DNA from: an uncultured beta proteobacterium
GTDB lineage: Bacteria; Pseudomonadota; Gammaproteobacteria; Burkholderiales; Burkholderiaceae_C
NCBI GenBank assembly: GCA_903864505.1
Contig: CAIPGC010000179.1
Location: forward strand, 1-37,690
Reading direction: 5' to 3'
DNA: 37,690 nt
Position 1 is the stretch's first letter; every line of letters starts with the position of its first letter. Positions 5,934-8,601 of this stretch are shown here, piece after piece. The notes beneath the pieces are model-generated. The model searched no databases. It saw only the letters and a program-made list of their open reading frames with translations, and was not told the origin of the DNA. The translations under genes and the position numbers were made by a program.

Positions 5934-7472
5934 TCACCCCTGCGCCGCAACCCGGTCAGCTTTACTGCAAAGCTTGTTCAGTGCACTTAGATAGGCCTTG
6001 GCAGAGGCAACCACAATGTCGGGGTCCGCGCCGACACCATTCACCACCCGACCACTGTTTTGCAACCGTACAGTAACTTCCCCCTGACTTTCCGTTGAAC
6101 CGCTGATTGCATTCACCGAATACAGCACCATCTCAGCACCGCTCTTGGCATGCACTTCAATCGCCTTGAGGGAAGCATCCACTGGCCCATTCCCTTCCGA
6201 CGATCCACTTACCTCTTTGCCATCCACCGTAAAGACAATGCTGGCACGGGGCCGTTCGCCCGTCTCACTGTGCTGGGACAGAGAGACAAAACCGTATTTC
6301 TCGTTCTCATGCCCAATGCTCTCGTCGCTCACAAGGGCCAGGATATCTTCATCAAAGATTTCACTCTTTCGGTCTGCCAGCTCTTTGAAGCGTGTGAAGG
6401 CAGCGTTAATATCACCCTCGCTCTCCAACTGAACGCCCAACTCTTGCAAACGTTGCTTGAACGCATTGCGCCCACTCAATTTGCCGAGAACAATCTTGTT
6501 GGCAGACCAACCCACGTCTTCGGCCCGCATAATTTCGTAAGTGTCCCTGGCCTTGAGCACACCATCCTGGTGGATTCCAGAAGCATGGGCAAAGGCATTG
6601 GCACCCACTACGGCCTTGTTGGGCTGAACCACAAACCCGGTAGTCTGGCTAACCATGCGACTTGCCGCCAGAATGTGCCGTGTATCAATACCCATTTCCA
6701 GGCCAAAATAGTCTTGGCGAGTTTTGACCGCCATGACAATTTCTTCAAGGCTGCAATTGCCGGCCCGTTCACCCAAGCCATTGATGGTGCACTCAACCTG
6801 ACGGGCACCGCCAATTTTTACGCCCGCAAGCGAGTTGGCCACCGCCATGCCAAGGTCATTGTGACAATGCACGGACCAGATGGCCTTGTTTGAATTGGGA
6901 ATGCGTTCGCGCAAGGTCTTGATGAAGGTTCCGTAGAGTTCGGGAATGGCGTAACCGACCGTGTCCGGAACGTTGATGGTCGTTGCCCCCTCGGCAATCA
7001 CGGCTTCGATTACGCGGCACAAGAAGTCCATATCGCTGCGGTATCCGTCTTCTGGACTGAACTCGATGTCTTCAACCAAATTGCGGGCAAACCGGACGGA
7101 TTGCTTTGCCTGCTCGAAAACCTGGTCTGGGGTCATGCGCAACTTCTTCTCCATGTGCAAGGCCGAAGTTGCAATGAAGGTGTGGATACGGGCACGTTTC
7201 GCACCCTTGAGAGCTTCGGCCGCCCTGGAGATGTCACGGTCATTGGCACGTGACAAAGAACAGATAGTGGAATCCTTGATGCTGTTGGCGATCAACTGGA
7301 CCGCCTCAAAGTCCCCGTTCGAACTCGCTGCAAATCCGGCTTCGATCACATCCACTTTTAGACGCTCCAACTGGCGGGCAATGCGAAGTTTTTCGTCGCG
7401 TGTCATGGACGCACCGGGAGACTGCTCGCCGTCACGCAATGTAGTGTCGAAAATGATCAATTTATCAGCCAT
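5934..7472 (-). CDS. leuA: 2-isopropylmalate synthase
   Basis: [23 protein letters not shown]..., [24 protein letters not shown]; start reassigned from 7496 to 7472. Confidence 0.96.
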
Positions 7473-7530
7473 TCGATTACTCCTGTAGATCTTCAATAAA
7501 CTTGGGGACCTGAATCAAACATTCCAACGC

Positions 7531-7562
7531 AAAAGGCCCGTTGCAAGAGCTAACGGGCCTTT
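7531..7562 (-). terminator. Attenuator-type terminator hairpin upstream of leuA
   Basis: Minus strand AAAGGCCCGTT-agctcttgc-AACGGGCCTTTT: perfect 11-bp arms followed by a short U tract, between the leader peptide and leuA. Confidence 0.8.
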
Positions 7563-7582
7563 GTGGAGAGAAATTGCGCGCG

Positions 7583-7639
7583 CTACTTCTTCCGCCCGTT
7601 TTGGCGTAGTGATAGTAGGCTTAGCAATGCGTAACTCAT
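7583..7639 (-). CDS. Leucine-rich leader peptide (leuA attenuator)
   Basis: ATG AGT TAC GCA TTG CTA AGC CTA CTA TCA CTA CGC CAA AAC GGG CGG AAG AAG TAG = MSYALLSLLSLRQNGRKK*; 5 Leu in 7 codons, 4 of them CTA; directly upstream of the hairpin and leuA. Confidence 0.8.
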   Translation of the reverse strand: MSYALLSLLSLRQNGRKK

Positions 7640-7666
7640 GCGCTCAATGTAACACAACTTTGAAGA

Positions 7667-8485
7667 CTATTTGTGCAAACCGCGCTCGTCGGGCTCGTCG
7701 GTGGACATGCTGATGACGCTGGTCTGAACCCCTTTGGCCTTGCGCCAACCGTAGACCACATAGCCACTCAGCCCATACATCACGAACACACCAAACATCA
7801 CAGTCGGAGGGTCAATGTTCACCACGGCAATGCCCAACGCAATCAGAACGATGACTGCGAAGGGCACGCTACGCTTCATGCTCACATCCTTGAAACTGTA
7901 AAACGGCACGTTGGTCACCATCGTGAGGCCAGAGAAAAGGGCAACGCAAAACATACCCCAGGCTACCGTTGGCCCCTTCACACCCATGTCCGTCATCACC
8001 CAAATGAAACCGGCTACCAAAGCGGCGGCGGCAGGCGAAGGAAGCCCCTGAAAATAGCGCTTATCGACCACTGCAGTATTGACATTGAACCGCGCAAGCC
8101 GCAGTGCCGCACAGGCGCAGTAGACGAATGCAGCGAACCAACCCCAGCGTCCCAACCCGTTGAGTGCCCAGACATAAGAAATAAGGGCGGGTGCTGCTCC
8201 AAAGGACACCATGTCGGACAGTGAGTCCATCTGCTCACCAAATGCACTCTGGGTATTGGTCATGCGGGCAACCCGACCGTCCAGACTGTCGAGAACCATT
8301 GCGCAAAAAACCCCGACTGAAGCCAGGTCAAAACGCCCGTTGATGGCCATCACAATGGCATAGAAGCCACCAAACAGCGCTGCCAGCGTAAACAGATTGG
8401 GCAGTACGTATATGCCTTTGCGCCGCTTACGAATCAAGACAGCGCCATTGCCGTCCGATCCGGACACGTCAGTACCATCATCCAT
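7667..8485 (-). CDS. pssA: CDP-diacylglycerol--serine O-phosphatidyltransferase
   Basis: CDP-alcohol phosphatidyltransferase signature MVLDSLDGRVARMTNTQSAFGEQMDSLSDMVSFGAAPA; multiple TM segments. Confidence 0.93.
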   Translation of the reverse strand: MDDGTDVSGSDGNGAVLIRKRRKGIYVLPNLFTLAALFGGFYAIVMAINGRFDLASVGVFCAMVLDSLDGRVARMTNTQSAFGEQMDSLSDMVSFGAAPALISYVWALNGLGRWGWFAAFVYCACAALRLARFNVNTAVVDKRYFQGLPSPAAAALVAGFIWVMTDMGVKGPTVAWGMFCVALFSGLTMVTNVPFYSFKDVSMKRSVPFAVIVLIALGIAVVNIDPPTVMFGVFVMYGLSGYVVYGWRKAKGVQTSVISMSTDEPDERGLHK

Positions 8486-8601
8486 AAATATTCCTTGCAA
8501 CTTCGCTCTCACACCGATGCCGGAGCCGGTATATCGCCATCGATACTACGTCACAGTGTAAGACAGTCTTGCAGGCGCAGCATACCGAACGCGAGTTCCA
8601 A

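Follow-up and report, generated by a model that had tools for sequence, protein, structure and literature searches.

The enterobacterial leu attenuator (leuL of leuLABCD) is credited to Wessler and Calvo (1981) in PMC3783181, which also discusses the sensitivity of leuL. Leader ORFs whose start codon opens the transcript have been reported in Sinorhizobium meliloti (trpL; PMC7298713) and Streptomyces (leuL, trpL, and ilvL; PMC8079986), and the actinobacterial LEU element places a leader ORF with a Leu run before leuA (PMC1262725).

The window analyzed here, a 37,690-nt stretch of DNA from an uncultured beta proteobacterium, contains a leucine-rich leader between pssA and leuA. The features of this locus are as follows.

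5934–7472, minus strand: leuA, 2-isopropylmalate synthase, the putatively regulated gene (NCBIfam NF002087, 906.9 bits, above cut-off)
7479–7484, minus strand: Shine-Dalgarno site of leuA, AGGAGT (sequence)
7531–7542, minus strand: terminator 3′ arm (region 4), AACGGGCCTTT, and end of the short U tract (inverted repeat; covariation)
7552–7562, minus strand: terminator 5′ arm (region 3), AAAGGCCCGTT, which can pair with region 2 instead (inverted repeat; covariation)
7583–7609, minus strand: protector stem-loop 1:2, with CTAC (7609–7606) pairing with GTAG (7586–7583) and GCC (7605–7603) with GGC of region 2 (window fold; covariation in alignment A1)
7583–7639, minus strand: leader peptide ORF of 18 codons, MSYALLSLLSLRQNGRKK and stop (translation; counterparts kept in relatives)
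7594–7600, minus strand: antiterminator strand (region 2), AACGGGC, within the leader ORF (sequence; pairing kept in relatives)
7607–7627, minus strand: regulatory Leu codons TTG CTA .. CTA CTA .. CTA, codons 5–11 (sequence; CTA enrichment)
7646–7656, minus strand: extended −10 element, TGTG-T-TACATT, with the predicted start at or adjoining the A of the leader ATG at 7639 (sequence; conserved spacing)
7667–8512, minus strand: pssA, CDP-diacylglycerol–serine O-phosphatidyltransferase, the upstream gene (TIGR00473, 117.9 bits, above cut-off; ORF bounds)

Elsewhere in the window, two tRNA genes lie side by side on the minus strand (2218–2383).

The locus shares with enterobacterial leuL a leader that is rich in Leu and has its regulatory Leu codons next to one another, and a protector/antiterminator/terminator logic, all placed before leuA. 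It differs in its apparently leaderless leader with an extended −10 element instead of a Shine-Dalgarno site, in the position of leuA behind pssA and not at the head of leuABCD, and in the length of the leader (18 codons), which has region 2 inside the ORF. The Sinorhizobium and Streptomyces leaders are similar in beginning with the transcript but belong to other phyla or another class and have other sequences; Streptomyces leuL1 also has no typical intrinsic terminator (PMC8079986), whereas the window element has one. The LEU element is a pseudoknot in which the Leu codons pair with the leuA Shine-Dalgarno site (PMC1262725), whereas the alternative structure in the window is a terminator 5′ of that site. 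In the window fold, the Leu codons pair instead with the leader's own stop region, a stem supported in alignment A1 (56 sequences).

No Rfam family matched the window at its gathering score. Leu_leader (RF00512) had no gathering-score match in the window and was not listed at E ≤ 10 when positions 7450–7720 were searched. Thr_leader (RF00506), which has a similar leader-plus-terminator shape, matched weakly (25.2 bits, E 0.0078); this identity was rejected, as the score is far under the gathering score of 55 and the regulatory codons are Leu, not Thr or Ile. The sole Rfam match in 20 order-wide loci, HepC_CRE, was weak, far below its gathering score, and was taken as spurious, and nothing similar turned up when plasmids were searched for distant matches. 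The literature, searched mainly through open-access texts so that an earlier description is possible, contained actinobacterial, staphylococcal, and enterobacterial cases and none for this group. The element is very probably a genuine leu attenuator of the classical type, apparently leaderless and, as far as the literature was searched, new.

Leader peptide and promoter

Translation of 7639–7583 placed Leu at codons 5, 6, 8, 9, and 11 (TTG, CTA, CTA, CTA, and CTA), in agreement with the preliminary description, which had claimed a minus-strand ORF of 18 codons with five Leu in seven codons and had correctly set its start 27 nt past the pssA stop (the pssA-like ORF runs to 7667, and the ATG follows after 27 nt). 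The locus therefore has a short ORF with a run of product amino-acid codons 5′ of a biosynthetic gene, as in a classical attenuator. Gene annotation misses this leader because it has only 18 codons and no Shine-Dalgarno site.

The leuA loci used for comparison came from 80 named genomes, 40 relatives, and 160 genomes across the order, together with two further sets (Polynucleobacter-like/Burkholderia-like family); these two genus labels are our own reading from size and sequence. Named best matches were Rhodoferax, Acidovorax, Limnohabitans, Polaromonas, and other Comamonadaceae, which places the window in this family. Among 59 Comamonadaceae loci, the leader had 16–18 codons in 56 and 20, 22, and 36 codons in the remaining three, Leu accounted for 27.5% of the leader codons, and the stop codon was TAG in 50. 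CTA made up 147 of the 273 leader Leu codons (54%) versus 18 of the 2198 in leuA (0.8%), which bears out the earlier remark on the rarity of this codon; the contrast is very large but was counted over related species, not independent events. The enterobacterial leu leader uses a rare Leu codon, CTA, in the same design.

In the window, exactly 6 nt separate the end of the extended −10 element from the leader ATG, and no Shine-Dalgarno site is present. With this spacing, the leader ORF should begin at the first base of the mRNA, and we therefore regard it as apparently leaderless, with a predicted transcription start at or next to its ATG. Nearly all Comamonadaceae leaders had TRTGN-TANANT 6–7 nt 5′ of the ATG, and many leaders of other families had a TTGC-type −35 element with TATATT or TATAGT 6–8 nt before the ATG. 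Because the first scan had scored the promoter, a second, promoter-blind test was made with 156 leaders selected on Leu content alone. The distance from the end of TANNNT to the ATG was 6 nt in 56 of these and 7 nt in 51, no other distance accounting for more than 20, and a Shine-Dalgarno-like motif preceded only 2 of the 156 leaders versus 145 of the 156 leuA genes. A fixed distance of 6–7 nt from the −10 element without a Shine-Dalgarno site is the arrangement of a leaderless attenuator. Transcription-start papers have described leaderless mRNAs in Burkholderia and Cupriavidus, though their main texts do not name leuA.

A genome-wide survey with the pattern TGTGNTAMANTN6-7ATG gave only two matches, the leuA leader and an aromatic-rich leader. 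The latter (G000:C228:8091–8110, minus strand; L261) is a leaderless-type leader, MHSPRFYFSYFWFSSACGGREI and stop, followed by AACCGCCGGCAACCCCGGCGGTTTTTTTT and then a DAHP-synthase-like gene that matched the AroG family weakly over its N-terminal 74 residues. This leader has its own terminator and looks like a Phe/aromatic attenuator.

Terminator, antiterminator, and protector stem

The perfect 11-bp hairpin with a short U tract that the preliminary description had proposed before leuA was found at 7562–7532, where AAAGGCCCGTT and AACGGGCCTTT form an inverted repeat (7562–7552/7542–7532) with a loop of 9 nt. This GC-rich hairpin lies between the leader and leuA, and in the window it carries a short U tract: four U in a row, with one further T after the 3′ arm and then GCG. 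The 140-nt region folded 2.8 SD better than shuffled sequences (z −2.8). The site was absent from the minus-strand output of a simple terminator scan, perhaps owing to its 9-nt loop, the limit of the scan being 8. In A1, 94.8% of the cells in the terminator stem were paired, and 31 double-change cells were counted versus 8.4 in shuffles (0/500).

The 7-mer AACGGGC occurs twice, at 7594–7600 and 7536–7542, spaced 58 nt apart, and the leader copy can pair with 7552–7558 in the hairpin's 5′ arm, so both the repeat and the pairing previously described were recovered. This antiterminator, formed between the leader and the terminator 5′ arm, and the terminator are mutually exclusive. The helix ACGGGC:GCCCGT was paired in 86.7% of the cells of A1, versus at most 49% when slid. 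Its double-change cells in Comamonadaceae numbered two, not exceeding shuffles, but the core is nearly invariant in this family, which makes covariation uninformative there. Individual loci varied: L101 carried a compensated change in the helix, L087 retained a GCGGGC strand despite a different reading frame around it, and L008 had lost the CGGGC strand with the leader and terminator still present. Comparison of duplex energies with mononucleotide-shuffled leaders gave p values of about 0.02–0.2 for most Comamonadaceae representatives and no significance for L008 and L253, and the energies discriminated only partly across lineages because the leaders are G-rich. Since the energy tests give modest support, we base the case for the antiterminator on its position and the differing sequences with which the helix has been rebuilt.

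The protector 1:2 stem, which contains the regulatory codons, was paired in 74.7% of the cells of A1, with 26 double-change cells versus 11.3 in shuffles (0/500). It is clearest in relatives, where GCGCTACTG pairs with CGGTAGCGC and CGCC with GGCG, linking the Leu codons to the TAG region. This pairing of the Leu codons with the stop region would explain why CTA and TAG are favored together.

The peptide tail, NGR/HGR-RR, is similar between species. This similarity would also suit a leader peptide or released small RNA that works in trans, adding to attenuation and not replacing it, for which Sinorhizobium peTrpL/rnTrpL, from a leaderless trp attenuator, provides a precedent (PMC7298713). However, the likeness of the tails follows from the need of the RNA for GGGC, the frame changes in L087, and the other lineages differ in amino acids; we consider an additional function in trans very improbable.

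Proposed mechanism

Taken from sequence and comparison, the ORF, its codon bias, the covariation of the terminator, the support for the 1:2 stem, the kept or rebuilt antiterminator complementarity, the promoter spacing, and the missing Shine-Dalgarno site make it highly probable that leuA is under classical ribosome-mediated transcription attenuation, with a leaderless leader and a terminator/antiterminator switch that presumably responds to leucine. The point at which transcription in fact begins, ribosome stalling, termination of the RNA, and a response to leucine are steps that we infer. The 1:2 protector stem, the promoter geometry, and the absence of the element from some close relatives were overlooked in the preliminary description.

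Transcription would proceed from the extended −10 element (7656–7646), starting at or adjoining the A of the leader ATG, and the leader would be read as a leaderless mRNA. The switch would then have to couple RNA polymerase to a ribosome starting on a bare 5′ AUG. When charged tRNA-Leu is scarce, especially that reading CTA, the ribosome would stall at codons 5–9; judging from the size of a ribosome footprint, this would leave ORF nucleotides 40–46 (region 2) free, whereas a ribosome at the stop codon would cover them. Region 2 (AACGGGC) could then pair with region 3 (GCCCGTT) and block the 3:4 hairpin, and the polymerase would proceed into leuA. With plentiful Leu, the ribosome would reach TAG and cover region 2, allowing AAAGGCCCGTT and AACGGGCCTTT to form the hairpin and stop transcription near 7531. 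An untranslated leader would terminate as well, with region 2 hidden by the 1:2 stem of the Leu codons and the stop-codon region. This last state would shield leuA from pssA read-through, because read-through RNA would carry the leader without a Shine-Dalgarno site.

Distribution and rebuilding of the switch in Burkholderiales

Among L001–L110, 64 loci had the order pssA, leader, and leuA, 19 had pssA and leuA without a detected leader, and 20 were tandem second leuA copies. Twelve of the 19 loci lacking a leader are closely related to the window and have pssA–leuA gaps of only 19–69 nt, so that the whole element must have been lost or originally absent. The attenuator was absent in L005–L007, L009, L012–L019, and L031, close relatives of which most are placed in the same genus. 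L012 retains an apparent remnant, with the promoter and the beginning of the leader in decayed form, and L104 is counted among the 19 only since its leader start is seemingly GTG. The tandem arrangement, in which the hit lies directly behind another leuA, was seen in 20 Comamonadaceae-type loci (L036, L038, L042, L047, L060, L066, L068, L073, L109, and others); these had first seemed leader-negative, and their reading as losses was rejected since they are second tandem copies.

In loci that lack the element, leuA comes straight after pssA, so a lone terminator would separate the two genes. Together with the position of the hairpin directly 3′ of pssA and its good terminator shape, this could suggest a mere terminator of the upstream ilv-pssA transcript, next to an ORF that is Leu-rich by chance. 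Such a coincidence is most unlikely in view of the 59 loci, which have kept the Leu codons along with the use of CTA, the length of the ORF, the TAG stop, and the spacing of the −10 element; moreover, CGGGC in the ORF is kept together with the terminator arm, and other lineages have rebuilt the pair with other sequences. Conservation of the Leu codons refutes a terminator as the full explanation, and insulation of leuA may be a second role of the hairpin in the attenuator. The preliminary description was to be refuted if relatives had kept neither the Leu codons nor the alternative stems; the element withstood this test in the 59 Comamonadaceae loci, with conserved Leu codons and CTA use, a covarying terminator, and a kept antiterminator strand.

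In Polynucleobacter-like loci, the terminator is GCCCCAGC..GCTGGGGTTTTT, and TTGGGGC in the leader pairs with GCCCCAG; in the sub-clade L215–L218, CTGGGGT in the leader faces ACCCCAG in the arm. Another Burkholderiaceae group (L114, L245, and L249) has CAGGTCGGG in the leader and CCCGGCCTG in the arm, forming nine pairs, one of them G-U. Such rebuilding between lineages is a stronger test of the antiterminator than covariation within Comamonadaceae. The classical attenuator reading is thus supported, at the level of sequence, by conservation in Comamonadaceae and by a switch rebuilt with different sequences in two other lineages.

Leaders with the same promoter spacing were found at 62 loci of other Burkholderiales families, most of them ending in ..CTGCTGCTGCGC-NNN-GCGCGC-stop; these loci were chosen by the promoter-scoring scan, so their spacing is not independent evidence, as that of the 156 leaders is. 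In the 28 nt after the leader, the C fraction was 0.42 and the G fraction 0.13, and a T5 run was present in only 6 of the 62. The order-wide leader end LLLR-x-AR, with the nucleotide pattern CTGCTGCTGCGCNNNGCGCGC-stop, a stretch rich in C and poor in G behind it, and no T tract, was observed in L022–L030 and L117–L213. Alignment folding for conserved structure in these other families gave nothing beyond three pairs. A further variant occurs in the Burkholderia-like loci L248, L250–L252, and L254, where the leader ends in LARLPR before the stop and a conserved GCCAGCGGTGGC hairpin without a T tract lies downstream.

That most other families with the same leader have a C-rich, G-poor stretch in place of a T-rich terminator, and that the leaderless Streptomyces leuA leader peptide also has no typical terminator (PMC8079986), would be expected if the leader acted through translational control of leuA or through Rho, without a switch at an intrinsic terminator. 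Such control is very improbable for the window and related Comamonadaceae loci, in which the GC-rich hairpin covaries and carries a T tract; the hairpin lies about 60 nt 5′ of the leuA ATG and leaves the Shine-Dalgarno site (7484–7479) uncovered. Attenuation by an intrinsic terminator remains our preferred reading for these loci. For the order, we tentatively suggest, as a scenario somewhat short of probable, that an ancestral leaderless Leu leader spread through most Burkholderiales families and that its switch was rebuilt from unrelated sequences, on at least three occasions, into an attenuator with an intrinsic terminator (in Comamonadaceae, the Polynucleobacter-like lineage, and another Burkholderiaceae group), with the families sharing the CTGCTGCTGCGC-NNN-GCGCGC-stop end using a different, possibly Rho-dependent, termination; the Rho-dependent mode is a guess.

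A leader peptide that lacks annotation and is absent from Rfam apparently controls many of the sampled Burkholderiales leuA genes, in Comamonadaceae, the Polynucleobacter-like lineage, and other families. Its natural absences in close relatives and the repeated rebuilding of its stems offer ready comparisons for the gain and loss of an attenuator.
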